Positions 1,463 to 58,558 of a DNA stretch of 64,000 nt are shown here, in pieces. A program made the position numbers and the translations under genes. The stretch comes from Zingiber officinale (lineage: Eukaryota; Streptophyta; Magnoliopsida; Zingiberales; Zingiberaceae): the NCBI RefSeq assembly GCF_018446385.1, contig NC_056002.1:4017474-4081473 (forward strand), written 5' to 3'. The first letter of the stretch is position 1. Every line of letters begins with the position of its first letter. The notes under the pieces were generated by a model that saw only the letters and a program-made list of their open reading frames with translations, did no database searches and had not been told where the DNA came from.

Positions 1463-2068
1463 CTATGCAACTCGAGATTCGTGAAGTTCAAAAGTAGAAA
1501 ACAAATTTTCTAAAGTACTTACCTCGAAGTCCTTAGAGATGTAATATGCATCTACTAAGGACGTCCATTCTGGAGTTCTGGGGAAGGCGTTGAGCGCGTA
1601 CCGGATCGAGTCCCGGTTCGTTACTTCTTCTCCAAGGTTGCTTAGTTGGGTGATCAGCTCTTTGATCCTTGCTTGGAGTTGCGCCACCTTCTCGCCTTGG
1701 TTCATCCGGAGGTTCGTAAGTTGAGTCCGGAGGATATCGCGTCTTGCAAGCTTCGCTTCGGATATACCTTCGTGAAGCTCCAGGAATTTTTCCCAGAGGT
1801 CTTTTGCGGAGTCGTAGCTTCCGATTCGACTTATCTCTTGTGGTGGCAACACGCTAAGCAGGTGGAACTCTGCCTTTCCGTTGGCGACAAACTCGGCTTG
1901 CTCCTTCTTGCTCCACTGATGCTCTTCTTTGTCTTTCAGAACTTCAAAACCATATTTCATCGTTAGTAAAATATCGAAGTCAGTTTTAAAAAATACCTCC
2001 ATCCGGTGTTTCCACGTCATGAAGTCTCCGTCAAACTTCGGGGGATGAATATTCGCTCCGACCATCAT
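1463..2068 (-). pseudogene. Gag (UBN2-type) of element A
   Basis: An open stretch of about 200 residues on the minus strand, opening with a PPKFDGDFMTWKHRMEVFF-like segment and containing SAKDLWEKFLELHEG. These are hallmarks of the UBN2/gag domain of plant Copia elements, which forms the particle coat. It follows the primer site directly. It is treated as a fossil part of element A. Confidence 0.8.
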
Positions 2069-2116
2069 TTTGATCGTTGTGTTTCAGTCGACGGTTAGTC
2101 CTTCTGAGGTGGTCTT

Positions 2117-2129: not shown

Positions 2130-2474
2130 TTATTGGTGCAGCGGAGGCTGACAAGAGGGGGGGTGAATTGCCTGTGAAAATAAAGTATACCCTCCTCGGG
2201 ATTTTCAACTCAAAATAAAAGCAGCTAAATAAAACAAAAAGGAAAAATAAACCAGAGACTCGAGAGTTAACCTGGTTACAACCAAGAAGGTTGTTAATCC
2301 AGTGCGATGAAAAGCGTGTACTAAGAAAGTCTCCTTTACTGTAGGCGGAGAAGCCTTTTTACATACTGAGAAAGCTCACAAACTGCTAGGAGTTGATTAC
2401 AGAGTTGAGTACTGAGTTGATTCCAATTTCCTAGCTCCAGGGGCCTTTATATAACTCCTAGAAAGTCTATCTCG

Positions 2475-2700
2475 AAGGTCCAAGGCGCCTCCAACAAGGT
2501 TCAAGGCGCCTCCAACCAAGTCAAGCGGATAAAACTCTATCCGCGCACGAAAGGTCATTTTGACCAGCTTGGAGGCGCCTCCAACAGTGTTGAAGGTGCC
2601 TCCATTGTTGAAGGCGCCTTCAACACTTGTTGACGGCGCCTCCAATGTGGAGGACTGCGCAGGCGCCTCCAGCAGTTCCTTTAAGGCGCCTACAGCTTGC
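2475..2700. repeat. GGCGCC-word array inside LTR A
   Basis: About eight copies of a 14-16 bp word built on GGCGCC (mostly AAGGCGCCTCCAAC and variants such as GGTGCC) occur in about 220 bp. The core is self-complementary and several copies extend to GGAGGCGCCTCC. The same kind of word occurs in the LTR of the related element at 37.5-37.65 kb. Confidence 0.7.
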
Positions 2701-3072
2701 TCTTTAGCTCTTTTTGACTTCGTTTCAGCTTCCGAAGCTCCGATAACTTGGGTGATTATGACCAACCGGAATAGGGCTCACCCGAACCAAATTCCCGGCC
2801 TTTTCCTCTAGCAGTCTTCCTCTTCGGCTTAACATCCCTCGAATGCCGCACACGTTCTTCTCGTCCACCGGTGTACTCTTCCGCAGCTCTCTCGTCCTTC
2901 GGACCCACCGAGCCCGTCGGCTCCCTTCCCGTGTCGTCCTTCTCGCTAGCTGCGTCTTCCGCTCGACTTCCTGCGCTCCTAAGCTCTTGCACACTCAGAC
3001 ACAGGGATCAAACACAATGCAGGACCTAACCAACTTAGTTGATCATATCAAAACAACCACGGGGTTCAACAG

Positions 3073-3230
3073 GAGGCTCCCAATTGATCGGCTGATCGAT
3101 TGGGATACGCTCTGTGCGACGACGTCGGCTTCCCAATCGATCTACTGATCGATTGGGAAGGAGATTTTTCGCAGGGACTCACCCAATCGATCGATTGGGC
3201 ATGAGCAAATCGATCGGTTGATCGATTCAG
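3073..3230. repeat. ATCGAT palindrome array inside LTR A
   Basis: At least six copies of CAATCGATCGATTG-like words occur in under 160 bp, in both the continuous form and the form interrupted by a few bases (ATCGGCTGATCGAT). Each is self-complementary or nearly so. No coding function. Confidence 0.75.
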
Positions 3231-3309
3231 CCCATGTGTGACTTGCCAAATCAAGTCCAAAGTCCCTAAAACCAACATCCGATTAACCATGATCTGTTGG
3301 TACATTATG

Positions 3310-3520
3310 CCTAGCGTCTGGTCATCCTCGGCCCGCTAGGACTTCCTCACCAAGTGTCCAGTCAATCCCTTTGACCCACTTGGACTTTTCTTCTTGTGCC
3401 AAGTGTCCGGTCAATCCCTTTGACCCACTTGGACTTTTCTCCTTGTGCCAAGTGTTCGGTCAACATTGACCCACCTGGACTTAACGATATCAGGTGTCCG
3501 GTCAGCTTTGCCCCACCTGG
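3310..3520. repeat. Tandem mini-hairpin units, about 45-50 bp each
   Basis: Five successive units share a loop around GGTCAA...TTGACC. Arms are CCTAGCG/CGCTAGG (3310-3340), CCAAGTG/CACTTGG (3350-3383 and 3399-3432), CCAAGTG/CACCTGG with one mismatch (3448-3478) and CAGGTG/CACCTG (3491-3519). The arm sequence changes between units but mostly stays complementary. Confidence 0.75.
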
Positions 3521-3529
3521 ATTTTCCCG

Positions 3530-3880
3530 TGCATGGTTTCACTCACCAGGACTTTAACTTCTGCCTAGCTTCACTCACTAGGACTTCCCATCTACCTGGT
3601 TTCACTCACCAGGATTTTCACCTAGCTTCACTCACTAGGATTTTTCATCTGCCTGGCTTCACTCACCAGGACTTTCACCTAGCTTCACTCATTAGGATTT
3701 CCCATCTACCTGACTTCACTTACCAGGACATTCACCTATCTTCACTCACTAGGATTTTCATACTGCCTAGCTTCACTCACTAGGTCTTTTACTTGACTTC
3801 ACTCACCAGGATTTCCAATTGCCTGACTTCACTCACCAGGACTTCCCAACTGCCTGACTTCACTCATCAGGACTTCCCAG
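3530..3880. repeat. Minisatellite of CCTRG...CYAGG hairpins
   Basis: Roughly a dozen units of about 25-30 bp around a TTCACTCA loop. Units carry CCTAG/CTAGG (3564-3582) or CCTGG/CCAGG (3595-3613) arms, and some are imperfect. Regular spacing, short loops and location inside an LTR exclude a CRISPR array. The reverse complement of the same unit recurs at about 32,515-32,670. Confidence 0.75.
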
Positions 3881-4124
3881 TCAAGTATCTAGTCAATCTT
3901 GACCTACTTGACTCTTCTTCACATCTAACTGGTCAACCTTGACCAGAGGGGAATTGTACCAACAATCTACCCAAATGAACGATTGCACCTGCAATCTCCA
4001 TTTATTGTCAGTCTCCATGTATTGTCAAACATCGAAACCCAAACATCAAGACTCAAACTTGAGCCAACCTAAGTTTAGTCAACTAGGTCAACCTTGACCT
4101 AGAAAATATTGCACCAACAGAGAC

Positions 4125-12491: not shown

Positions 12492-12936
12492 TGTTGACGA
12501 GTGGCTCATATTTGGATGAAGGGATGTCATGGAAGAAAAATCTGTTAAGATTTTTCGTAATAAAATTCTGTTAAGATTTTATATAACAGAATTTTGTTAT
12601 GTTTTTCATAACAAATTCTGTTACATTTTTACCAGGTCTGGGGGTTTAGCAGTATTTATAGGGATCATTGTAAACCCATTGTAGATCAGACAACACAAGA
12701 ATCATTAGATGTGATTCTCTTGTGTAGAAGAGAATTCTAATAAAGCTTCGGCCGTTTTGTGGAGTAGGCAAGTCGCCGAACCACGGTAACTCTTTTTCTT
12801 TCTCTTCTTCTTCTCCTTCCTGGTGTTTGCTCTCTTTTGTGCGTCTTTGTCTTGTTGTTCCGCGCGATCTCTTTTCTCTCTTCCTCTTCTTCCGCGGTTT
12901 AAAGGTTGAGAGGTATTGCCCTCTCTTTGCACAACA
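12492..12936 (+). repeat. 5' LTR of Copia element E (445 bp)
   Basis: Runs from TGTTGACGAG to GCACAACA. It contains a repeated AATTCTGTTA/TAACAGAATT inverted motif at about 12540-12630, a TATTTATAGGGA promoter-like segment near 12655 and a pyrimidine-rich R/U5 part. Confidence 0.93.
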
Positions 12937-16933: not shown

Positions 16934-17380
16934 TGTTGACGAGTGGCTCATATTTGGATGAAGGGATGTCATGGAAGAAAAATCTGTTAAGATTTTTCGT
17001 AATAAAATTCTGTTAAGATTTTATATAACAGAATTTTGTTATGTTTTTCATAACAAATTCTGTTACGTTTTTACCGGGTCTGGGGGTTTAGCAGTATTTA
17101 TAGGGATCATTGTAAACCCATTGTAGATCAGACAACACAAGAATCATTAAATGTGATTCTCTTGTGTAGAAGAGAATTCTAATAAAGCTTCGTCCGTTTT
17201 GTGGAGTAGGCAAGTCGCCGAACCACGGTAACTCTTTTTCTTTCTCTTCTTCTTCTCTTTCCTGGTGTTTGCTCTCTTTTGTGCGTCTTTGTCTTGTTGT
17301 TCCGCGCGATCTCTTTTCTCTCTTCCTCTTCTTCCGCGGTTCAAAAAGGTTGAGAGGTATTGCCCTCTCTTTGCACAACA
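16934..17380 (+). repeat. 3' LTR of Copia element E (447 bp)
   Basis: Nearly identical to the 5' LTR. The sequence preceding it, AAGGTGGAGAT, is a typical Copia polypurine tract. Confidence 0.93.
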
Positions 17381-18105: not shown

Positions 18106-20413
18106 ATGAAAAGATCTACACCAGCATCGTCCTTCTTCACTTCTCTTCTAGTCTTTTTCTTTCTCACCACTCTTACAGGTGGAGTGCTCGGTAGATCTCA
18201 AAATAAAAGCTGCTCTTCCTCTTGCGGTATCCTTGACGATATCCACTACCCGTTCCGCCTAGAAAGCGACCCAGAGTGGTGCGGTAAGCCAGAGCTTGAG
18301 CTCATCTGTGAATCAGGAAAAGATGCAGTCTTGCATAACTTGTCACCTACAGACAAGTACCTGGTCACCGAAATATCATATAATCAATCGGGCTTCAGGC
18401 TCGTCTATGCCGGTTATGTCACAGGTTCTAATAAATGCGTGCTTCCCAGTGCCCACTTCCCCCTAAATACACTTTACCTCATCCAAATGCCACTTTGGCC
18501 ATTTGGTTCGACTGAAGATGCTAGAGATCATGAGTATTATATGTTTGAAGAATGGGCTAGTTTTATGAGCTGCAAACAGGAAATTCATAGCGATCTTTAC
18601 AAGCCCATCCATTGTCTTACTGGGGACAATAACTCGGCTACACACGTCATCGTTGGCAACGATGCATATGCCATACGCAACCTCAAGAACTCATGTAGAT
18701 TCGTAAACTTATTGCCAGTTGACGGAGAATACAATTACAGTGACGTGGATGTATTTGAACTCCTGGCAAAAGGAGTCTGGATTGGATGGTCTCTCACGCC
18801 ACCCTCTGACATTTTCGAGTATTGTTGGAAAAATTTTTGGTAGGAACATAACATTCAGTTAACCTTAATTATCATATGCATGTTCTCACTCTTTTCTTAC
18901 AATATTTAATTGCTATCTCTGCAGGTCAAAAGTATATTATTACAGCATCGAGAATTCCCCTTACAGGATGCTTGGTCCCCTCTTTGCCGAATTAGGTCTT
19001 TTAGATTGCGTCTACTGGGAGGAGAGTTATCGCAACCATTATCACGTTGCCTTCGGTTTTACAGTGGTCTTAGTCCTTGCACTAGATATAGCTCTTTGTC
19101 TGCTAGGTATGCTTTCACTTCATTGACTTTCCATCTGCATGCAGTAACACTACTTATTGTCCAATTGCATAACTAGTTTGTTCGCTATTCACTTGTTTTT
19201 TTTTTCCCTCTCACTTGTTACCACAGTTGGTAGATTTGTGATTGCACCTCTATCAATTTATGCATTCCTCGCATACAATTATTGGAAGACAATTAGAAAG
19301 CCCATCGACTCAGTTGAAAAGTTCCTGCAAATCCAGCAAACTCTAACTCCCACACGCTTCGCCTACAGCGACATCATAGCCATGACGAGTCACTTCAGAG
19401 AAAAACTAGGCCAAGGCGGCTTTGGTTCAGTGTACAGAGGATACATTCTTGGTAAATTCCCTGTCGCCGTCAAGATGCTTGTCGGCAGCTCCAAGTTCCA
19501 CGGTGAAGATTTCATCAGCGAGGTCTCCACGATCGGCAGGATCCACCACATCAACGTGGTGCGTTTGGTTGGGTTTTGCTCCGAGGGATCAAAGAGAGCA
19601 CTCATCTACGAGTACATGCCCAATGGCTCGCTCGACAAGTACATCTTCTCTGCCAACAGGGGAAACACGTTCACTGTCGAGAAGCTCCATGAGGTGGCCC
19701 TGGGGATTGCTAGAGGCATCAACTACCTCCATCAGGGCTGCGACATGCAAATTTTGCACTTCGACATCAAGCCCCACAACATCCTCCTCGATCGCAACTT
19801 CATTCCCAAGATTTCAGACTTTGGGCTTGCAAAATTGTACCCAAAGGACAAGAACGTAATATCCATGAGCGTTACCAGAGGCACGATAGGATACATAGCA
19901 CCCGAGCTGATATCGAGAAATTTTGGGATCATATCCGACAAGTCGGATGTCTACAGCTTCGGAATGCTGCTAATGGAGATGGCCGGCGGGAGACATAATG
20001 TAGATGCGAGAGCTGAGAACACCAGTCAGGTTTATTATCCTTCTTGGGTCTACGACAAACTTGTTCAGCTGCATGTAAGTGAGAGCAGTCATGGTATTGA
20101 AGAGATTGTAATCAGTGAAATGGAGAGAAAGTTGTCCATGGTGGGACTTTGGTGCATCCAAATAAAGTCAAGTAGCCGGCCATCCATGAGCAGTGTAATA
20201 GAGATGCTTGAAGGAGACGTGAATGATCTACAGATGCCACCCAAGCCTTTCTTTTCCTCAGTAGAGCCAAGTCTGAGAGAATTAGAATTCTCCTCCACAA
20301 TTTCATCTTCTGGAGAAGAAGAACTACATGATCAGCAGCATACTTTACGTCCCAACCATTCCGGATTGGCTTCATCTTCTATACAACTATCTGTCATCTT
20401 AGAGCATTCTTAA
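18106..20413 (+). CDS. LRK10L-type receptor-like kinase, 3 exons
   Basis: Predicted plasma-membrane receptor kinase of 700 residues. Exons are 18106-18839, 18925-19106 and 19227-20413, all with GT-AG introns and consistent phases. The ATG at 18106 is chosen because the in-frame stretch upstream begins without an ATG and because 18106 opens a good signal peptide (SSFFTSLLVFFFLTTL). A Cys-rich GUB_WAK (galacturonan-binding-like) ectodomain follows (CGILDDIHYPFRLESDPEWCG), then a membrane segment around residues 295-330. The kinase has a GQGGFGSV loop near 366, VAVKM Lys near 386, [11 protein letters not shown] near 482, DFG near 502 and APE near 529. HFD in place of HRD makes it a non-RD kinase, a feature of many immune receptors and normal for LRK10L. 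Ligand unknown. It appears intact; a truncated second copy lies at 40.2 kb. Confidence 0.92.
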
Positions 20414-26631: not shown

Positions 26632-27722
26632 TGTTGGTGCAATTGACCTCTAGGATTTTGATGTTTGACAATATAGCTAAGTTTGGTCAGTTTGACCAAG
26701 GGTTGATCCAGACAGGACTTGATGTTTGGAAGAGAGAATATAGTCAACACTAGATGACTAGTAAAGGTAAGTCCTAACCTTTGTTTTTTTATCTATTATG
26801 CTAACTCAGTGTTGCAGGGAAGTCCAGCTAGGTCAACGGATCGATCGGATAGCTGGCATGAAGTCCAGACAAGATCAACGGGATGACCGAATGTCTGGCA
26901 AGATGGTAAGTTGAGGTAAGTCACTGGAGGAGAGTAACTTTGTGAGGACGTGTTCCCTATTTGAGGGAACAGTAGGCGTCGATCCAACTTAGATCCATTT
27001 AAAAAATTTAAGTTGAGATCTTGACTAGATTATGGTCTCGAGGAGATAGAATCTAATTACTACTATATTTATTATATTGTGCTAATTTTGTTTTGCAGAG
27101 TAGTATAATTTTTATTGCCTCGACCTAACCTTTTCTTGCAGGAAAACAAGTTGCTGGAAAAGGGGGGGTCCGGACGCTCGGAAGGGATCCAGGTGCCCGG
27201 AACTGGTCCAGGCTCCTGGAACTGGTCTGGGCTCCCGGAATGTCAAAACCTATCTCGTCACCAGCTTGGAGCACGTTGATTGGGTAGGCCGACGTCACAG
27301 TCTAAGCACCCCGAAGGGATTCGGGCACCCAGAACTGCTTATATAAGCAGTCTTCCTCCAAAAGCCAAATACAACTTCTTCTATGATTGCTCTCTTACAC
27401 GCTGCTCCAAAGACGCTCCTGCGATGCTGTGAAGCTCCTCCGACAACCTGCGACTCAGTTTCATTTTTCTTGTTGTTAGTATTTTTTATAGTTCATGTAC
27501 TAAATTGTGTAATACTTTTTGTGAATTATTAGTGATTGTCCAACGAAAGTACTCTCACGTGCAGGCCTTGGAGTAGGAGTCGACGAAGGCTCTAAACCAA
27601 GTAAAATTGGTTTGTTAGCATTGCTTCAATTTTTCACTTCAGCTGCGTACTCGATTTAACTAACGATTTTCGATGATGGTTATTCACCCCCCCCCCCCTC
27701 TAGCGAACTTTATGATCCAACA
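26632..27722 (+). repeat. 5' LTR of element D (1,091 bp)
   Basis: Contains two mini-hairpin units (26824-26898), GC-rich CCGG-word repeats at 27165-27240, a TATA box inside an 18-bp perfect palindrome (27334-27351) and a poly(C) tract just before the end. Confidence 0.85.
27334..27351 (+). promoter_or_regulatory. TATA box embedded in perfect palindrome (LTR D)
   Basis: ACTGCTTATATAAGCAGT reads identically on both strands and contains TATATAA. The same 18 bases are conserved in the 3' LTR at 33135-33152 although the LTRs have diverged around them. Probable LTR core promoter. Confidence 0.7.
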
Positions 27723-28150
27723 AGTAGTATCAGAGTCAGTACCGCTCTGAATTGGTGCAACCACTAATCAAGCAAAGGGGGTCCTTTTCAAAAGAAAATT
27801 TTTATATCGTTTTGGTTTAAAAATTATTCTTACGCCTCTCATTTTTTCCCCCAATTTTTTTTTAAAAAAAATTCACTTCAATTTTTTGACTATTAGTTTA
27901 AATTGACAAAATAATCATTCTAGTAAAATTTGTCATAATACTTTTTTTTATTATTTTTTTATTATTTAAAAAAAAATGGTGAAATATCTTTATTTCTGTA
28001 TCTCCCACACTGCTTACCCCAAGACAAAGTCTTGGAATTTACTTCTTGTCTATATTTTTTGCAAGTATACCAATGTCTATTCAAAAAAGACGGAGCATCC
28101 ACGAGCTACCATCATACAATCAAGAAGATTTCAACTACTAGAGGCGAGCA

Positions 28151-28660
28151 ATGGAATGGTTCTTAAGAAGTCTAAATTTTAATAATTTGCTGATATTGAG
28201 AAAGTCTTCTCGGGACTCAGAATTGAACAAAAATATAAGTAAACTTATTTTTAATATTTTACCTAACAATATTTTATGCATACTAGAAAAGTACAAGAAT
28301 GCACATGATCTTTGGACCCAGTTGATCAAGCTACATGAGGAGTCATTAAAGCTAGAGGATCAAGTCGAAATTAAATATGGACTCGAGTCAAATCCAATCG
28401 AAAAGCCTACTGAATTAGGGGATGCGCTTAAGGTTAGTATAATTTATCAAAATACCCCTATTAGTAGTAGTTTAAATAATCTACATGATAATTCAAATAA
28501 GTATGAAATTATCCCAAGTATAGTGCATGATAATCTAGATTTACATGATTTAAATTCAAAACCACAAAATAATCTATATTCTGATCAAGTCAATCAAGAC
28601 TTTGATCAATTTGGAATCAACTTGACTTGGTCAAACAGAACAATGACCAAATCAATTTAA
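28151..28660 (+). pseudogene. Gag-like stretch of element D
   Basis: Includes YKNAHDLWTQLIKLHEES, which matches the SAKDLWEKFLELHEG block of Copia/TR-GAG gag (compare element A). Downstream the reading becomes Asn/Leu/Lys-rich and repeats itself (the block around 28,480-28,650 recurs at 28,660-28,820), leading into the A/T tract. Fossil; broken. Confidence 0.55.
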
Positions 28661-28795
28661 ATAATTCAGATAAGTATGAAATTATCCCAAGTATGATGCA
28701 TGATAATCTAGATTTACATGATTTAAATTCAAAACCACAAAATAATCTAGATTCGATCAAGTCAAGACTTTGATCAATTTGGAATCAACCTTGAC

Positions 28796-29239
28796 TTGGT
28801 CAAACAGAACAATGACCAAATCAATTTAAATAATTTAGTTAATTTAGAAAATTTAAAATTAAGTGAACATTTAGACATAAGTAAGTCAAACATTAAAATA
28901 AATTCAAATTTACAAGTTAAAAATGAGAAAATGGATTTAGATAAAATCAGTAAATATCTTAATAAAGTATTTAATAATCTAAATAATATCAGTCCAGAAA
29001 ATTTTATCCAAAACCAAGATAATTTAATTAACAAAAAATTAAATTTTAAAGATAGGACTAATCTAATAAATTCAACTAATAATGTAAATATAAAAGATAA
29101 AGAAAATATGAGGATAAATTCAAACACTTCAATAAAACCAAAACCAACTTTAATAAATTCAAAATTAAATATTAAAGAAAATTTGAAATTAACAATTAAT
29201 AAAAAGATAAACCTTAGAAATAGAATTCAAACAATTTAA
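28796..29239 (+). pseudogene. Asn/Lys/Leu-rich open stretch of element D
   Basis: A 147-codon open stretch made almost wholly of N, K, L, I and S. No domain recognised. It is best read as the beginning of the A/T-rich expansion of the element's interior rather than as a gene of the plant. Confidence 0.4.
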
Positions 29240-29299
29240 TCAATTCAAATTTAAAAACTAAAAAAAAACTTAAACACTAAAAATAACCTTAACTTAAGA

Positions 29300-31520
29300 T
29301 TGAAAGCAAAGTTAAATATTAAATACACTCTTTTAAGGACAATTTGACTCATTTAATTAATTAAAAATTAAAATTTTAAATTTAAATTATAAATTAAATA
29401 TTAAATCTTAACTAAAATTACCATTAAGTTTATTACAATTACAAAGGTAATCGATATAAAACCTAAAACAACCCGTTCAATAATTCAAGGGGAAGACTTT
29501 AAATTAGTTGACACCTCCAAAAGTAATAGGTTACCTGGCAGGGTAATTAGGACTAAGTTAAAAAGAGACAAAAGTTTAATTTGACAAATGATACTGGTGA
29601 AGTTTTGGATTATAATATGTTAGGGAAGCTCTATTTATGCAGGTCTAGGAAGATATGATTTCGACCTGATGCATTTGGCTTAGTGGAACTAACTGAAGCT
29701 AATGATATCCAGGTGACTCACCAGAGCTCAGAAGTTTATCCAAAGAATATCTGTTTGTTGAGTCCAAAGCTAAACCTGAATCTAAAACAAAGTTAAACCA
29801 AGTTCTGAAATTGAATTTAACTTATCTCACAAAAATTATAGTATTTCCAGATTCAAAACATACATTGGGTCAGATGACTAAGGATGGAAATTCAAACTCA
29901 AATTAATTTAAATTAATTAATTAAATTCAATTCAATTAGAATTAAAATAAATTAAATTTAAATTAAATTTACTTCAATTAAATTTAAATTAAATTTACTT
30001 CAATTAAATTAAAATTAAATTTACTTCAATTAAATTAAAATTAAATTTAATTTAATTAAAATTAAATTAAATTCAATTAAAATTAAATTAACTTTAAAAT
30101 TAAATTAACTTTAAATTAAATTCAAATCAATTTAAATTCAAAGTTCAAATTAAATTAAATTTAAATTCAAATTAAATTAGCTTTAAAATTAAATTAAATT
30201 CAAATTCAAATTAAATTAACTTAAAATTAAATTCAAATCAATTTAAATTCAAAGATCTAATAAATTTAAATTTAAATTTAAATTAAATTAACTTTAAAAT
30301 TAAATTAACTATAAAATTAAATTAAAATAAAATTCAAATCAAATTAACTTGAAAATTAAATTAAATTCAAATTCAAAATAAATTAACTTTAAAATTCAAA
30401 TTAACTTAATTAAAACTTAACTTAAATTAAAATTAAAAATTAACTTAACTAAAACTTAACTTTAATTAAAACATAATTTAAAACTTAACTTAAATTAAAA
30501 TTAAATATTAACTTAATTAAAACTTAACTTAACTTGAAATTAAAAATTAACTTAACTAATAATTAACTTAAAAGTGAAATTAAAATTAAACTAAAAATTA
30601 AATTAAATTTAAAATTAAAATTAAACTAATTAAATTGAATTAAATAAAAAGTAAATTAAAATAAAATAAAATTAAAATTAAAATAAAATTAAAATTAAAA
30701 TTAAACTTAAAATTAAATTAAACTTAAAATTAAATTAAACTTAAAATTAAATTAAACATAAAATTAAAATTAACCTTAAAATTAAATTAAACTTAAACTT
30801 AAAATTAAAATTACTTAACTTAACTTGAAATTAAAAATTAACTTAACTAATAATTAACTTAAAAGTTAAATTAAAATTAAACTAAAAATTAAATTAAATT
30901 TAAAATTAAAATTAAACTAATTATATTGAATTAAATAAAAAGTAAATTAAAATAAAATAAAATAAAATTAAACTTAAAATTAAATTAAACATAAAATTAA
31001 AATTAAACATAAAATTAAAATTAAAATTAACCTTAAAATTAAAATTAAAATTAAAATTAATTTAAACTTAAAATTAAATTAAACTTAAAATTAAAATGAA
31101 ACTTAAAACTAAACTTAAACTTAAACTTAAATTAAATTAAACTTAAAATTAAAATTAAATTAAAATTAAAACTTAAATTGAAAACTTAAATTTAAGATTA
31201 ACTTAAAATTAAAACTTAAAAATTTAAAACTTTAAATTAAAACTTTAATTAAAACTTAAATTTAAAATGTAAATTTAAAACTTAAATTAAAATTTGAAGT
31301 ATTTAAAAATATTTCAAAAATCATTTAAAAATACTTTTACAATTTATTTAAAAAAGGATCATTTTAATCCTTTTAAAAATTATTTCAAAAATTCTTTTCA
31401 AAATTCTTTAAAAATTATTTTTAAATTTTTTAAAAATATTTTATAAACTCTTTTAATAAATTATTTAAAAAATACTTTTAAAAATTATTTTTTAGACACT
31501 TAATTTAAAACTTAATTAAT
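29300..31520 (+). repeat. Almost G-free A/T-rich low-complexity tract
   Basis: About 2.2 kb dominated by AATTAAA, TTAAATT and AAACTTAAA words, with long stretches that contain no G on the plus strand and only scattered C. The strand asymmetry (A over T, C over G) is continuous. It lies between the gag-like part and the 3' LTR of element D. Confidence 0.9.
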
Positions 31521-32514
31521 AATTAACTTAAACTTTAAACTCTATTAAATAATTAATAAGTAAATAATTAAAACTTAATTGTTTAGTCTAACCTTATTTA
31601 AGAACTTAGGTTGGTTTGCTCAGTATCTTAATTTAACCTAATTAAAATATTTTACTCTAATTCATTTTAAATCAAATTTGACTTTACATTAAAATGTTAA
31701 TCAAAATTTTAATTTATTTTAATTAAATCATAATTAAAGATTGACTTAAATTGAATCTTAGCTTTACTTAACTTTGTTTAATAACTTTAATAAATTTAAC
31801 TCTAAATTAATACTGACTTCAAACTTAGTTAATCCTACTTAAATTAAATCTAAAACAAAAAATGAAATAAATAAAAATTTATATTATAACTAAGATTTTC
31901 ATTAAATCAATTAACTCAATCAATTAATACAAAATTTAAGTTGTTTTAATCAAATAAGTATTAAATTGAGTTACTTATTATTGAGTTAGTAATAAATCAA
32001 TTCTTAACTTAATCCTAAAATAATTGATTATTGATGCATTTAAATAATCTTATTTTAATCAAACTTAAATAAACTAGTATATAGAAATATTTATGTAAAT
32101 AATACACTTGATGAACATATGTGTTACTAACACTAAATCCCCTAAAACACTTAGGTATAAAAATGTGCTAAGGTCTTAAAATTTAACATACCTAAACCTC
32201 AGTCTTAACTTAAGAGGAAGTATTAACTTAAGAGGCAGTGTTAACTTAAGGGGAGTGTTGACTTCAGAGGGAGTGTTAACTTCAAAGGGAAGTGTTAACT
32301 TTAAGGGAGAGTAACTTAGAAAAGGGAGAGTACCTTTAAGGAAGTCTTGATAGTTTGTTTTTGGTATTTATAGAAAGTTTTTATATCCCTTAGAAAAGTG
32401 TTTTAAATCATTTTTATAACTTAGACAATTCTGTTAAAATTATTTTTGTAACCGAAGGATAGGCAGGTGAGAAGTATACTAAGTGACTAGTCCTAATTGG
32501 AGGTTAGGCGAAGT

Positions 32515-32675
32515 GAAAGTTCTAGTGAGTGAAGCTAGGTGATGGAAGTCCTAGTGAGTGAAACTAGGTGGTGGAAGTCCTGGTGAGTGAAGCCAAATCC
32601 TAGTGAGTGAAGTTAGGTTGTGGAAGTCCTGGTGAGTGAAGCCAAACAATGGGAGTCCTAGTGAGTGAAGTTGGA
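32515..32675 (+). repeat. CCTAGTGAGTGAAGCTAGG-type hairpin units
   Basis: About six units of 25-30 bp with arms CCTAG/CTAGG or CCTGG/CCA around a GTGAGTGAA loop. This is the reverse complement of the minisatellite at 3530-3880 in LTR A. Confidence 0.75.
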
Positions 32676-32734
32676 CAGTCGGTTGACAGAACCAACGAAT
32701 CTTGAAATCTATTAACACTATCTTACTTTCTTGC

Positions 32735-33524
32735 TTTATCTATTGTGCTAACTCAGTGTTGCAGGGAAGTCCAGCTAGGTCAACGGGTCGATCATATAGC
32801 TAGCATGAAGTCTAGACAAGGTCAATGGGCTGACTGGATGTCTGGCAAGATGGTAAGTTGAGGTAAGTCACTGGAGGAAAGTGACTTTGTGAAGACGTGT
32901 TCCCTGTTTGAGGGAACAGTAGGTGTCAATCCAATTTAGATCAATTTGAAAAATCTAAGTTGAGATCTTGACTAGATTCTGGTCTCGAGAAGACAAAATT
33001 TAATTACTACTCTATTTATTATATTGTGCTAACTTTGTTGTGCCCAAAACTTATCTCATTGCCAGCTTGGAGCGCGCTGATTGGGTAGGCCAACGTCATG
33101 GTCCAGGCGCCTGAAAGGGATCCGGGAGCCCAGAACTGCTTATATAAGCAGTCTTCCAACAAGAGCCAAACACAACTTCTTCTACGATTGCTCTCTTGCG
33201 CACTGCTCCAAAGACGCTCCTGCGATGCTGCGAAGCTCCTCCGACAACCTGCGACTCAGTTTCATTTTCCTTGTTGTCGGTATTTTTTATAATTCGTGTA
33301 CTAAATTGTGTAATACTTTTTGTGAATTATTAGTGATTGCCCAATGAAAGTACTCTCAGGTATGGGCCTTAGAGTAGGAGTTGACGAAGGCTTCAAATTA
33401 AGTAAAATTGGTTTGTTAGCGTTGCTTCAATTTTTCTCTTTCACTGCGTACTCGATTTAATTTATGATTTTCGACAATCGCTATTCAACCCCCCCCCCCC
33501 TAAAGAGAACTTTACGATCTAACA
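32735..33524 (+). repeat. 3' LTR of element D
   Basis: Aligns with the 5' LTR from GCTAACTCAGTGTTGCAGGG to the CTAACA end. The sequence before it (about 32,455-32,700) holds extra CCTAGTGAGTGAAGCTAGG-type units not present at the same place in the 5' LTR, so the exact upstream border is unclear. Confidence 0.8.
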
Positions 33525-37156: not shown

Positions 37157-38003
37157 TGTTGGAACCCTGTGGTAGTTTTAATGTGATCAACCAAGTCAGA
37201 TTAGGTCCTGTTGGTGTTTAACCCTGTGTCTAAGTGTGCAGAAGATTAGGAGCACAAGAAGTCGAGCAGAAGACGTGACTAGCGAGAAGGATGGTATGGG
37301 AGAGAGCCGACGGGCTCGGTGCGTCTGAGGGACAAGGTGCTGCGGAAGAGTACACCGGTGGACAAGAAGGATGCGTGCGACCGCTCAAGGGATGAGAAGC
37401 CGGAGCGGAAGCCTGCTCGAGGAGAAGGTCGGAAAAAGGGTTCGGGTGAGCCCTATTCTGATTGACCGAAATCACCTAGATGATCGGAGCGGTAAAAGAG
37501 CATAATGTGACTGTAAGCACTGCTAGAGGCGCCTTCAAAGGAAGTTGAAGGTGCCTCCGCGCCTTCTGTGGAAGGCGCCTTAAACTGGACAGATTTCGTC
37601 ATTGGCAGTGAATAAACTTTTATCCACTGGCGCCTTGCTGGAGGCGCCTTCCAGCCCAGGATAATATTTTCCAATGATTATAAAATGACCCCTGGACCTA
37701 GGAATAGAACACAACACTTGTAATTGAATTTTCTTGAGTTCTATTCTATAATTAAGTGTGCAAATTGTTATAAAGAGGCTTCTCCGCCTGAAGGAGAGTT
37801 TCAGTACGCTTTTAATTTCCTTGGATTAACAACCTCCCTTATTGTAACCAAGTAAATCGATTATGTCTCTTTTTCTTTATTTAATTTCTTAATTCCGTTT
37901 ATACAAGTGTTAGATTTAATTACGCTATAAAAGTTCAAGGAAGGTTCGTTTTTTATTGCGGGGCTATTTTTCCCCCACTAGTCGGCTGCTACCGGGACCA
38001 ACA
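37157..38003 (+). repeat. 5' LTR of element C (847 bp)
   Basis: Runs from TGTTGGAACCC to GGGACCAACA. It shares the AGCGAGAAGGA...GCTGCGGAAGAGTACACCGG segment with LTR A and carries GGCGCC words at 37520-37660. It lacks the long mini-hairpin arrays of LTR A. Confidence 0.8.
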
Positions 38004-39302: not shown

Positions 39303-40225
39303 AAAATTTAAAAAATCGTGCATTCTCAAATATTCAATATATTAAAAAATATAATGGATTAAATTGATACCTTAAATATTATAAGGCTTATATTAGGAAA
39401 ATTTCACAGAAATACATACCTAAGAAATTTTTAATTAACCCAATAGGAAGGAATTTATAATGGATTCCAAAATCATATTTTAATTGAATGTTTTTAAATT
39501 ATGACTTTTAGAGAAAATTAAATATTAAATTTTTTTAAGAGGCTTTGTCTAGAAAGTGGTTGTTGTTCTAATATCCAAGAAGATCTGATGTCTCGTCATA
39601 ACTTAGAAGCTAATTATTAAAATAAGTATTTAATTGATTAACTGTTAAGCATTTAGAAATTATAAAAATACCTTAATTTTTTTGTTAAAAATTAATTAAA
39701 TATTTTTTTAATTCTTATCTTTTAAAAACAGTTAGAATTTTTTTTTTCACTAGTTTTATTATTTTTACTCTTACACTTTTAAATGAACCACATTTTTAAT
39801 GTGATCAAAAGGGGAGTAGGGAAGAACAAGTCTAGAGGGTACTTGCAAGTCTAGAGAATACCTACAATTTTTTTTTTTCAAAAAGGTTAAAAAATTTAAA
39901 TTTTTTTCTAGCAAATTTTACTTAGAAAAATTCTTTGACTTGCAATTTTTTTTCCAAAAATTAGAAATTTTTTTTACCCTAACTTAATTTGGATTTGATT
40001 ACATTAAAAAGGAGGAGATTGTTGGTACCCTGTGATAGTTTTGATATGATTAACTAAGTCATGTTAGGTCCTGTTGGTGTTTAACCCTGTGTCTAAGTGT
40101 GCAGGAGCTTAAAAGCACAGGAAGTCGAGCGGAAGATGCGGCTAGCGAGAAAAAAGATACGAGAAAGAGCTAACGGACTCGGTGCATCTGAGGAACGAGG
40201 TGTGCTGCGGAAGAGTACAACGGCA

Positions 40226-40246
40226 GAAACACGTTCACTGCCAAAT
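40226..40246 (+). other. Filler DNA at LTR-kinase junction
   Basis: Between the last LTR-like base and the first base aligned with the kinase gene lies GAAACACGTTCACTG (40226-40240), a copy of 40305-40319 in the kinase sequence 79 bp downstream. It is followed by CCAAAT, which partly resembles TGCCAAC at about 40294. This looks like templated filler from end-joining repair. Confidence 0.7.
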
Positions 40247-41049
40247 ATCTACGAGTACATGCCCAATAGCTCGTTCGACAAGTACATCTTCTCTGCCAAC
40301 AAGGGAAACACGTTCACTGTCCAGAAACTCCATGAGGTGGCCCTGGGGATCGCTAGAGGCATCAACTACCTCCATCAAGGCTGCGACATGCAAATTTTGC
40401 ATTTCGACATCAAGCCCCACAACATCCTCCTCGATCGCAACTTCATTCCCAAGATTTTAGACTTTGGGCTTGCAAAATTGTACCCAAAGGACAAGAACTT
40501 AATATCCATGAGCGTTACCAGAGGCACGATAGGATACATAGCACCCGAACTGATATCGAGAAATTTTGGGATCATATCAGGCAAGTCGGATGTCTACAGC
40601 TTGGGAATGCTGCTAATGGAGATGGTTGGCGGGAGACATAGATGTGAGTGCTAAGAACACCAGTCAAGTTTATTATCCTTCTTGGGTCTACGACAAACTT
40701 GTTCAGCTGCATGCAATAAGTGAGAGCACCCATGATATTGAAGAGATTGTAATCAGTGAAATGGAGAGAAAGTTGTCCATGGTGGGACTTTGGTGCATCC
40801 AAATTAATAAAGTCAAGTAGCCGGCCATCCATGAGCAGTGTAATAGAGATGCTTGAAGGAGACGTGAATGATCTACAGATGCCACCCAAGCCTTTCTTGA
40901 CCTCAGTAGAGCCAAGTCTGAGAGAATTAGAATTCTCCTCCACAATTTCATCTTCTGGAGAAGAAGAACTTTACGTCCCAACTATTCCGGATTGGCTTCA
41001 TCTTCTATACAACTATCTGTCATCTCAAAGCATTCTTAAACTTAATATG
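40247..41049 (+). pseudogene. Truncated second copy of the LRK10L kinase
   Basis: Matches 19604-20421 of the intact gene at roughly 96-97% by eye, including [35 protein letters not shown] and the C-terminal tail. The ectodomain, membrane segment, glycine loop and catalytic Lys are absent. A shift after GGRH (near 40640) and a 4-base insertion before the SRPSM block (near 40803) break the frame, and one in-frame codon is added near 40711. It cannot bind ATP normally without subdomains I-III. Homology ends 8 bp past the stop, at the same point as in copy 1. A remnant of a local gene duplication. Confidence 0.88.
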
Positions 41050-53411: not shown

Positions 53412-55047
53412 ATGAAGGCTGCGAGGAATCCTCCCAGGCTCGAGCCAAGGAGAAGTGGCAATGCGCTCATCATTGCCACCATGCTGATTTCCCTGTGCAT
53501 CCTCACCCTCGTCAAGGCTCGCTACTGCTCCGCTCCGTATGGTTTGTGTTCTTGTTTGGTGCTTTCTTTGGCTCTGATGAGTTGGGGATTTTGTGTTGTT
53601 GAGAGAATGCTACTGTTCCTCTTCTTGCAGGAAAGTCGCAGAGATTAGCAGAGGATTTAGAGGCGTCGAGAGTAATCGTAGAGAAGAGTGGGGAAGCTGC
53701 TCTAATAGGTAATTTGAAAAGATTTGGTAGAAAAAATTGGGTTTTTTTTCCTTCTGTTTTTTTGAAGAGAAGAGAAGAGTAGAGAATTCGTACTTTTGTG
53801 CAGAGGATGAAGATGAAGAATTAACCATAGGAACATCTGAAGAACACGCTGCAGAAAAAGCTGTGTTGAGCTCGAACAAGCCAATCTGCTCCGAGACAAG
53901 CAGGAGATCTGATGTCTGCGAAGTAGAAGGGGATGTGAGATTGCAGAGCAGCTCGCAGACCATCTTCCTGCCTCCTTCCTTGACAGATCGAGAATGGAAG
54001 ACGAAGCCTTATTGCAGAAAGCACGATCCCCCGGCGATGAGGAAGGTCAAAGAGTGGACTTTGAAGCCGTTCCCCGAAGGCGGGCCGCCGCCTCAGTGCA
54101 CCGTCAACCACGCCGCTCCGGCGCTGGTCTTCTCCATAGCCGGATTCACCGGCAACCTCTTCCACGACTTCACCGACGTGCTCGTCCCCCTCTTTATCTC
54201 CGCTTACCAATTCCGCGGCGAGGTCCAGTTCGTGATCCCGGAGCACAAGTCCTGGTGGGTGAGCAAGTTTGCCCTAATTTTTAAGCAGCTCTCCAACTAC
54301 GAAATCATCGACGCCGACAACGACGACCGAGGCGCTATCCACTGCTTCCCGCGGGTAATCGTGGGATTAAGCTTCCACAAGGAGCTCAGCGCGGATCCGG
54401 CCAGGACGCCGACGGGGTATGGAATGGCGGAGTTCAAGGCGATGCTTCGGAAGGCTTACGGCCTGGAACGCCCGAGGGCGGTGCCGTCGGGAGACCAGTG
54501 GGACATCCGGCGGAAGCCGAGGCTGCTGATCATCACGCGGAAGAAAACTAGGGTTTTCCTGAACGAGCGGGGGATGACGGACATGGCGATGAGTCTAGGA
54601 TTCGACGTGCGCGTAGCGGAGCCTGACATGAGCACCGACCTGTCCAAGTTCGCGCGGCTGGTGAACTCCGCCGACGTGATGATCGGCGTCCACGGCGCCG
54701 GGCTCACCAACATGGTGTTCCTCCCCGACGGCGCGGTGCTGATCCAGGTGGTGCCGTTCGGGGGGCTGGACTGGCTCGCCAGGGAGACCTTCAAGGAGCC
54801 GTCGCCGGCGATGGGGATCAACTACCTGGACTACCACATCAAGGCAGACGAGAGCACGATCGGCGAGCAGTACGCGGCGGACGACCCTGTGATCAAGAAT
54901 CCATCCGCCGTGCACAAGCGGGGGTGGAATGAGATCAGTCGGATCTACCTGGAGAACCAGAACGTGAGGCCGCACCTCGGCCGGCTGCGGAAGACGCTGT
55001 TGGAGGCGCTTAACCACCTGCCTCACGGCCGCCATGGAAGAGGATGA
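53412..55047 (+). CDS. GT61 family glycosyltransferase, copy 1 (3 exons)
   Basis: Predicted type II Golgi membrane glycosyltransferase of family GT61 (DUF563), which in monocots includes xylan arabinosyl- and xylosyltransferases. Exons are 53412-53541, 53631-53708 and 53804-55047, with GT-AG introns, for 483 residues. One membrane anchor at about residues 17-37 (ALIIATMLISLCILTLV) is followed by a short stem. The catalytic part includes CTVNHAAPALVFS (about 168-180), GFTGNLFHDFTDVLVPLF (183-200), LLIITRKKTR, VNSADVMIGVHGAGLTNMVFLP (GVHGAGLTN near 364) and VVPFGGLDW. The third exon is distinctly GC-rich. The acceptor sugar chain and donor cannot be told from sequence. Convergent with the second GT61 gene. 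Confidence 0.94.
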
Positions 55048-56566: not shown

Positions 56567-58558
56567 CTATTGGATGATGAGCTCCAGTGCCTTCCACAGC
56601 GTGTTCTTGAATTTCTTTATATCGAGCTTCACGTTCTGGTTGTCCATGAAGGTGGACCTCATCACAGGGTGCCCTCGCTGGTGGAAGGACATGGGATCCT
56701 TGAACACTGGGTGATCCCTCGGATACTGCTCGATCAAACTGCTCTCCTCTATGGCAATGCTATACTGCACATAGTTGAGCTTCATGTCCTTAGCTGGCTC
56801 CCCGAAATCCAGCATCGCCATCCACTCGAGGCCCCCCCACGGCACCACCTGGATCACCGTCGCGTTGGGCGGCAGGAACACCAAGTTGGTGAGCCCGGAG
56901 CCGTGCACGCCCAACATCACGTCCACTGAGTTGACCAGCTTCGCGAATTGGCCCACGTCGGATCCCACATCGCCGTCGTTGACGATGATTTCGAATCCCA
57001 ACTGGTCCGCCAATTGAGTTATTTCGTGTAGATTTGTGAATGCTCGAGATTGCTTCCTTGCTACGATGAGAATTCTGGGTTTCTTCCCGGCAAGGTCTTC
57101 GATGTTTGAAATGGCGTCCCTTTCCAGGGAGAAGGCTTCTCTTAGGAACTTGGCGAAGTCGACCATGGAGTAGCCGTTGGGGGCGCGCGCAGGGTCGATG
57201 CTAAGCTCCTTGTGCGAGCGGAGGCCGACTACGACCTTGCTGAAGCAGTGCACCTCCTTGTTCTTGTCGTAGTCGATCACCGGAAACTTGGAGAGCTTTT
57301 GGAACACCGGGAGGTAGCGGTAGACCCACCAGGGGTTCATGTCGCTGACCACGAACTGAACCTCGCCGTCGAGTTGCCGGGCAGCGAGGAAGAGCGGGAT
57401 CAGCACGTCGGTGAAGTCGTGGAAGAGGTTGCCGGTGTATCCTCCGGCGGAGAAGACGACAGCAGGGGCAGCGTGCCTGACGGTGCATTGCGGCGCCGAG
57501 ACGTCGACGGCTTTGACTGTCAGCTCGCGAACGCGGCTGAAGGCGGCGGCGTCGCCCTTGCGGGCGTAGGGGCGGAACCGGAACGCCTCGTTGCGCTCGC
57601 CGGAGTCGACGAAGAGGACGTCGGAGGAGTTTCCAGGGATGCGGATGTCGCCGGACAGCTCGCACACGTCGACCCGAGGGTCAGAGAATTCGCACGACAG
57701 CTTCTTCTCCACATTACTCTTGATTTCATGAGCTGCTTCAAGATCAGAATAGCGTATCCAACTTCAGATTTACCGAATCAAAGTGCGGCCAAACTAGATC
57801 TAAAAAATCTCAAAAATCGCAATAAAATCATTCTACTGTGTGCTTCATCTTGATCCGAGTTGCCACCGTTCTTTGCTCCCCCCTCCTCTGCTTCACTCGT
57901 ACTCTCTGCAACAAGTTAAAAATTAGCTGAAAAGCTCAGTAACCTTCAACCAATTCCAAGCACAGACCTAACGCTTCATCGTCCTCCTTCCCCTGGAGAT
58001 TCTCCTCTTCATTCTTTTCTGTAACAGGAAGCAAATCTGTGACCCTTTTGCTGATATAGGAGTTCATCTTATTCACAGAAAAACATGATAAATACTTGAA
58101 ATCCATCATGAGTAGAGTCGGATCTAGTGAAGATCCTCACCTAATTGCTTAGAAGCCTGATCATCATCTCTTAGAGTAGGAGCTACTTTCTCTCCCTCCA
58201 CATCTATGCATCAGAAACTTAAAAGAGTCTTAAAACCAGTATTCTATGATTGAATTCACACGAAACAGCAACAAACATCATGAGAAGTACCTGATCTCTG
58301 AGTTCCCAACTTTGAGCCAACTGGATCAATATCAAGATTTAGTTAGAAGGAAAAAAAAATACATTTTTATTTTCATAACCATCTAATTTCTCGTGTACAA
58401 TAAAAGCAAAACAAAAGGAACTCACGACTGGGAAAAGTAAAAGGCCTGGAGATCAGTATGAAGGTCATGGAAATAACGAAGCATCCTACTACAAGCATAA
58501 CGAATCTGAATCGCTGCGTCTGGCCGGCGTTTCGGAACAGCTTCAATTTGTTCGCCAT
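56567..58558 (-). CDS. GT61 family glycosyltransferase, copy 2 (6 exons)
   Basis: Type II Golgi glycosyltransferase of family GT61, 503 residues. Minus-strand exons in order: 58558-58426, 58320-58291, 58203-58141, 58018-57968, 57905-57837 and 57732-56567, with GT-AG introns and matching phases. The ATG at 58558 gives a short basic N-terminus and a membrane anchor (FRFVMLVVGCFVISMTFILI, about 18-37). The four short middle exons make a Glu/Asp-rich stem. The catalytic exon includes CTVRHAAPAVVFSAGG, GNLFHDFTDVLIPLF, ILIVARKQSR, VNSVDVMLGVHGSGLTNLVFLP and VVPWGGLEW. The second-largest family difference from copy 1 is the longer, split stem. The main exon opens at a CAG (57732), with an alternative AAG acceptor 3 bases earlier. 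Substrate unknown. Confidence 0.94.

Follow-up and report, generated by a model that had tools for sequence, protein, structure and literature searches.

Palindromic arrays in LTRs are known in print, as is the correction of one hairpin arm from the other by snap-back copying. Excerpts of Bousios et al. 2010 (PMC2829016) describe 13 Sirevirus elements whose LTRs carry high-copy palindromic repeated motifs (RM) in their upstream half, before the TATA box. Twelve of the 13 published RMs share a CGG-CCG core, the exception being Tnd-1. The same excerpts report a poly-C signal that precedes the LTR end by 21 bp on average, an LTR/PBS junction reading CA/ATTGG or CA/AGTGG plus TATCAGAGC, and, ahead of the 3' LTR, several exact AGGGGGAG PPTs.

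Both promoter function and the triggering of silencing are attributed to palindromic LTR arrays. In maize, predicted hairpins concentrate in Copia LTRs, where the excerpted text of Martin et al. 2023 (PMC10760457) discusses function and silencing as opponents in a tug of war; citing Bousios 2016, it also gives a small-RNA excess over palindromic regions of Sirevirus LTRs. Template switching at inverted repeats, which corrects arms, is established for DNA replication in the excerpts of PMC8794818 and PMC8604942. According to the available part of a review (PMC12786077), WRKY factors bind W-boxes of the EVADE/ATCOPIA93 LTR. The first-pass annotation of the DNA studied here knew of no named description of arrays like these; such descriptions exist both for Sirevirus palindromic arrays (PMC2829016; PMC10760457) and for template-switch arm correction (PMC8794818; PMC8604942).

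The analysis covers a single window, a stretch of 64,000 nt from Zingiber officinale that is rich in retroelements and plant-like in content. Pfam matches include copia-type gag, reverse transcriptase, protein kinase and glycosyltransferase 61 domains, while tRNA and Rfam scans of the window return no matches. A hairpin scan lists 22 dense intervals, nine of which fall in identified LTRs and 13 outside them by our assignment. The arrays of interest lie in an LTR (LTR1) on the minus strand, which is taken as the sense strand of the element that bears them.

3072 to 4119, minus strand: visible 5' part of LTR1, starting with TGTTGGTGCAAT and broken at 3071 by a nested element
3078 to 3231, minus strand: third set of palindromes, AATCGATC..GATCGATT-like hairpins
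3310 to 3520, minus strand: array B, five units with 7-nt arms and a GGTCAA..TTGACC-like core (3520-3490, 3478-3448, 3432-3399, 3383-3350, 3340-3310)
3532 to 3871, minus strand: array A, 12 units with consensus CCTRGT-GAGTGAA-RYYAGG, partly in a 57-bp dimeric higher-order repeat
3881 to 3911, minus strand: further B-type unit with arms TCAAGTA/TACTTGA, 9 bp when extended (3913-3879)
3929 to 3946, minus strand: B-type core whose short arms, CTGGTCA/TGACCAG, are flush with it; outside the core 3 of 7 arm positions pair
4083 to 4102, minus strand: B-type core whose short arms, CTAGGTCA/TGACCTAG, are flush with it; outside the core 4 of 7 arm positions pair

Because LTR1 starts at 4119 and is broken at 3071, the arrays sit in the upstream ~1 kb of the LTR. 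One end of LTR1 is visible; its 3' end, promoter, TATA box and internal region lie outside the window. The first 12 letters of its TGTTGGTGCAAT start (4119) are those of a TSD-bounded LTR at 26632, and one 21-bp BLAST match to that LTR follows this common start. The core of the hairpins at 3078-3231, with their AATCGATC..GATCGATT arms, resembles the published Tnd-1 motif ACAATCGATTGT. Searches with the array pattern give no match in viral contigs; in prokaryote genomes, seven stretches from bacterial or archaeal records contain single matches, taken as chance.

LTR1 is interrupted by a second LTR, which belongs to a nested element.

2131 to 3071, minus strand: LTR of a nested Sirevirus-like element, homologous to the LTR at 37158-38003 and outside the array
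1463 to 2083, minus strand: gag of the nested element (Pfam Retrotran_gag_2, E 5.6e-16)

The nested element has a TATA near 2453, a poly-C run of seven C and a PBS, ATTGGTATTAGAGC, at 2130, and its LTR/PBS junction, TA/ATTGG TATTAGAGC, departs from the Sirevirus junction by two mismatches. An assignment of the array to the LTR with the PBS at 2130 was dropped, since homology with the LTRs at 37158 and 40021, by which that LTR (3071-2131) is recognized, places its start at 3071. The placement of the array inside an LTR in the first-pass annotation is correct for an LTR that runs on the minus strand from 4119 down to at most 3072; this LTR is cut by the different LTR at 3071-2131.

A perfect 10-bp inverted repeat, TGTTGGTACA/TGTACCAACA (3295-3304 and 3955-3964), encloses the whole array block. 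It is close in sequence to the LTR terminus TGTTGGTGCA and has a 3-bp direct repeat (GAT) outside. Four of 2000 shuffles of both flanks reach 10 bp. A reading of 3295-3964 as a separate solo LTR or MITE was not adopted because the flanking direct repeat is just 3 bp (GAT).

Other palindromes and repeated stretches occur in the window. The nested LTR (2475-2693) and the LTR at 37158 (37526-37650) contain another set, centred on GGCGCC. Both LTRs of a third copia element have strong AT-rich hairpins (12535-12610 and 16977-17055) with a 16-bp stem, TAATAAAATTCTGTTA, and these are two of the four densest intervals in the hairpin scan. Two kinase-like stretches, 19148-20413 and ~40226-41000, look alike by eye, the Pfam scan covering the first; the other directly follows a truncated LTR fragment at 40021-40223. 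Similar reading frames adjoin one another in opposite orientation at 53731-55047, which matches glycosyltransferase 61, and 56567-57763.

A second array-bearing element lies on the plus strand.

26632 to 33524, plus strand: second array-bearing element, with its 5' LTR at 26632-27722, its 3' LTR ending at 33524 and the TSD GTTTC on both sides
26824 to 26898, plus strand: two B-like units with arms CCAGCTA/TAGCTGG and CCAGACA/TGTCTGG, in a 42-bp tandem repeat found by TRF
32521 to 32675, plus strand: array C, six A-type units within the 3' LTR or adjoining it
32771 to 32845, plus strand: 3'-LTR counterparts of the units at 26824-26898, with one uncompensated arm change each

This element has two LTRs, TG..CA ends and a 5-bp TSD (GTTTC), as an LTR retrotransposon should. 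Alignment of its two LTRs holds from 26779/32726 on, without fixing where exactly the 3' LTR starts. TATATAA occurs at 27340 and 33141, about mid-LTR, with the boxes before it, and array C ends 466 bp upstream of this motif. Twelve C are found at 27687 and 33489, with the LTRs ending at 27722 and 33524. The LTR/PBS junction, CA/AGTAG TATCAGAGT, is a near-match, with two mismatches, to the tRNA-Met PBS junction. The plus strand of 31300-32460 holds no exact copy of the AGGGGGAG PPT; variant purine-rich repeats are present at 32201-32341. The six ORF pieces scanned of the 20 listed in this element give no retroelement Pfam match. About 1.6 kb of AT-rich low-complexity repeats occupies 29888-31491. 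LTR1 and the second element have the A-type array in common (77% over 181 columns by BLAST). Array C is missing from the 5' LTR (26632-26778 compared with 32440-32725) and, given its presence in one LTR only, such arrays may come and go as whole blocks. An AAGTGAA at 32511 was considered as an A-type unit and dropped as a false site.

All of the array B arm pairs named in the first-pass annotation are present: CCTAGCG/CGCTAGG (3340-3310), CAGGTG/CACCTG (3520-3490) and CCAAGTG/CACTTGG, which occurs twice (3432-3399 and 3383-3350). The remaining unit, 3478-3448, pairs CCAGGTG with CACTTGG and has one G.T. The loop between these arms, described as a constant GGTCAA..TTGACC, is not constant; it is exact in two of the five units, the others carrying TTGACT, GGGCAA..TGACC or GGCCGA..TGACC.

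B-type arms covary, and independent mutation from one ancestral unit is rejected. Over ten units, which comprise array B, the unit at 3911-3881 and those at 26824-26898 and 32771-32845, 66 of 70 arm pairs are Watson-Crick, or 73 of 84 when the two flush-armed cores outside this set (3946-3929 and 4102-4083) are counted. Once the two 3'-LTR counterparts and the near-copy at 3383-3350 are merged, seven collapsed units remain, with 47 of 49 pairs Watson-Crick. This is matched by only 0.08% of the 5040 arm permutations and, when independent mutation is simulated 20000 times in each of two ways (uniform or site-specific), by no run. In these seven units, 53 of the 57 differences on the five-prime side are matched by a complementary difference on the three-prime side. 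Adding the flush-armed cores gives 54/63 over nine units (0/20000 permutations), and the eight B-type units of LTR1 by themselves give 47/56 (0.04% of permutations).

The strength of this covariation derives from the units added at 3911-3881, 26824-26898 and 32771-32845. Within 3310-3880 there are four distinct B units, for which 17% of the 24 permutations (1 in 6) are as good, as are 0.025% (uniform) or 5.4% (site-specific) of simulations. The B-like units of the second element were first picked by eye as palindromes; TRF lists the tandem pair regardless of its arms, and some choice remains. The claim that arms change together thus stands for the B-type units as a wider set (47/49 in the seven collapsed units), and is much weaker for the interval in which it was made.

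There are 18 A-type units, 12 in array A and six in array C, with 88% identity by column in the alignment. Their loop is identical at 125 of 126 letters while the arms vary. Eleven of the 12 array A loops are exactly GAGTGAA, and no inverted A-type loop is found in arrays A and C. For this block the first-pass annotation gave a TTCACTCA loop with CCTAG/CTAGG or CCTGG/CCAGG arms. The block is less clean than that, perfect stems (pairs 2-6, aligned by eye) numbering 6/12 in array A, 1/6 in array C and 7/18 overall, and pair 1 is T.G in 15 of 18 units.

Across all A-type arms, 77 of 108 pairs are Watson-Crick; permutations average 67.8 and reach that count in 0.06% of cases. Taken separately, array A has 55/72 (0.3% as high); array C has 22/36 against 20.3, which is not significant (30% of permutations as good). 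The A-type covariation score is 0.362 versus 0.273 in shuffles (0/500 as high), and paired cells are 92.2% versus 88.2 (1/500 as high). Pairs changed on both sides and the number of pair types do not exceed shuffles (296/500 and 499/500). The signal resides in pair 3, which is G-C in nine units and A-T in nine, and which is the sole pair whose two-sided change is seen in at least two distinct sequences.

Array A has a 57-bp dimeric period, so two old subtypes copied as a dimer explain most of the pair-3 signal. For array A as a separate question, it is probable that two ancestral subtypes, CTAG and CTGG, were amplified as a dimer and then drifted, with no covariation process involved. The 57-bp period, the restriction of repeated two-sided change to pair 3, and two-sided pairs and pair types that stay within the shuffle range (296 and 499 of 500) all agree with this history. 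The score and the paired cells do beat shuffles (0 and 1 of 500), though relatedness alone can have this effect. Amplification of two subtypes leaves array B and its related units unexplained, since these contain at least six arm sequences, each of them paired.

The LTRs of the second element provide a simple control for whether selection or copying maintains the arms. They are taken as identical at insertion and today show 94 differences over 798 aligned positions. Every hairpin listed by the finder (17 and 16) was followed from one LTR to the other, leaving out unalignable pairs (47 and 12) and pairs that are not Watson-Crick in the starting LTR (18 and 13). Starting from the 5' LTR, where 11 of 17 hairpins have aligned pairs, 63 of 77 Watson-Crick pairs are the same, 14 have changed on one side and none on both (1.1 expected). 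Starting from the 3' LTR (14 of 16 hairpins), 81 of 98 are the same, 17 are one-sided and none is changed on both sides (1.4 expected). These counts replace a hand-picked one (13 of 33 listed hairpins; 98 pairs) with 76 the same, 21 one-sided and one changed on both sides that was not paired in its starting LTR; the replacement left the odds of the readings unmoved. Changes are single after insertion and paired between B-type units. As all changes in these stem pairs are one-sided, arms are not kept paired after insertion.

This result bears on arm homogenization, in which a polymerase, whether of the host or the reverse transcriptase during element replication, snaps back and copies one arm from the other without selection. 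Such template switching accounts for well-paired arms of different sequence and has the precedent in DNA replication excerpted above (PMC8794818; PMC8604942). Its reported companion, inversion of the spacer, is absent, with no inverted loop in arrays A and C, and the three-letter spacer lies on the 3' side in all ten B-type units when aligned by eye. With 125 of 126 loop letters constant and none inverted, a recognized sequence is favored and frequent spacer-inverting template switches are disfavored. The form acting in host replication is further disfavored because no paired change follows insertion; the reverse-transcription form stays a candidate. Snap-back copying, one of two sources that the first-pass annotation proposed for the symmetry, encounters no inverted A-type loop and no compensation after insertion, and we regard homogenization without selection as unlikely. 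A combined version, in which arms are rewritten pairwise by snap-back in reverse transcription while selection holds the loops, would yield symmetric variants without one-sided intermediates and would end at insertion. We consider it quite unlikely.

The other proposed source was selection for RNA folding. The element transcript might be selected to fold back in its 3' U3, for packaging, for stability or as a template for small RNAs. RNA folding of 3310-3880 is better than in all of 100 shuffles on either strand, with z of -3.25 for the minus strand and -4.27 for the plus strand, and DNA folding of the minus strand gives a z of -3.37 (0/100 as good). The small-RNA excess that the excerpts of PMC10760457, citing Bousios 2016, give for maize Sirevirus palindromic regions also fits. 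However, folding of the plus strand is no worse than that of the sense strand, array C is at shuffle level (z -0.83, 43/200 as good), and loops are more conserved than stems. A strand test by mismatch type in pairs 2-6 of the A-type units has no signal (7 G.T, 7 A.C and 2 other), giving no hint that the sense strand tolerates G.U, although T.G occupies pair 1 in 15/18. Because the plus strand folds as well, array C matches its shuffles and G.T equals A.C, nothing points to the element RNA specifically. Selection for an RNA foldback, having no sense-strand signal, is in our judgment very unlikely.

The W-box consensus is TTGACY, and the GGTCAA/TTGACC core of the B units is an inverted W-box pair. 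The segment 3071-4119 (1049 bp) has 16 TTGACY sites compared with 1.82 in shuffles (0/1000 as many). The second element has five in its 5' LTR versus 1.5 (1.5% of shuffles) and three in its 3' LTR versus 1.44 (18%). The nested LTR has three versus 1.18 (11%), the LTR at 37158 has one versus 0.89, and no site occurs in the copia LTR before 12934. The entire window is mildly enriched (116 versus 83; 0/100 shuffles as many).

We lean, by a little, toward reading the arrays as a palindromic cis-region like that of Sirevirus-type Ty1/copia LTRs, symmetric through the active phase of the lineage and decaying once inserted. The arrays would act as tandem dyad-symmetric boxes upstream of the promoter. 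Their GAGTGAA loop and inverted W-box-like GGTCAA/TTGACC core are probably transcription-factor sites, and the variable arms would supply the symmetry of each box. Box units may multiply through tandem duplication. Most likely, arms stay complementary during transposition of the lineage because asymmetric boxes work worse and leave fewer copies. An inserted copy would be freed of the pairing constraint and would decay one side at a time. The boxes, their complementary arms, the conserved loop, the surplus of W-boxes and the one-sided decay of inserted copies are observed here; we infer both the binding of factors and selection as the driving force. Several results weigh against this reading: a core other than CGG-CCG, no exact AGGGGGAG PPT in 31300-32460, no retroelement Pfam match in the six scanned ORF pieces of the second element, folding and arm pairing of array C at shuffle level, the mild TTGACY richness of the entire window, and the 13 of 22 hairpin-dense intervals outside identified LTRs. 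Nor does selection on a bound site, taken alone, account for the pairing of arms that differ in sequence. For the pairing mechanism, selection in the active phase is favored over snap-back copying in reverse transcription. With constant cores and exchanged paired arms within one element, the many copies in one plant genome would let one ask directly if selection holds the symmetry or copying makes it.

In the literature looked at, the unreported detail is paired arm variation within one element. Among the matches listed for Sirevirus palindromes, template switching, the ginger family and W-boxes, the excerpts contain no report of such variation between units of one LTR, which is no proof of absence. 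Set against excerpts on template-switch mutation at inverted repeats, the arrays are alike in that this process would yield paired change of both arms; they differ in that neither spacer inversions nor paired changes after insertion are found. The EVADE/ATCOPIA93 LTR, as excerpted in PMC12786077, also has W-box motifs in a copia LTR. Unlike those, the W-boxes here are inverted pairs central to hairpin units, and WRKY binding to them is putative.

The structured palindromic cis-region of maize Sireviruses, in its excerpted description, shares clusters of palindromes in Copia LTRs and strong predicted structure with the present arrays, a comparison made by sequence and folding. Against the available text on Sirevirus RM boxes, several differences appear. 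The arrays have a GGTCAA..TTGACC or GAGTGAA core in place of CGG-CCG, several box types succeed one another within one LTR, arm sequence varies among the B-type units of a single LTR, and the second element has no exact AGGGGGAG PPT in 31300-32460. There are likenesses as well. High-copy palindromic boxes cluster in the upstream LTR half (for LTR1, in the first ~1 kb that is visible), and the second element has its boxes ahead of the TATA box and a poly-C signal; its junction is an imperfect version of the CA/ATTGG type. Box sequence varies between families while palindromy stays, and the 88% column identity of A-type units falls in the published range. On this comparison we treat the arrays as functional analogues of Sirevirus RM boxes, and call the elements Sirevirus-like rather than proven members of the group.
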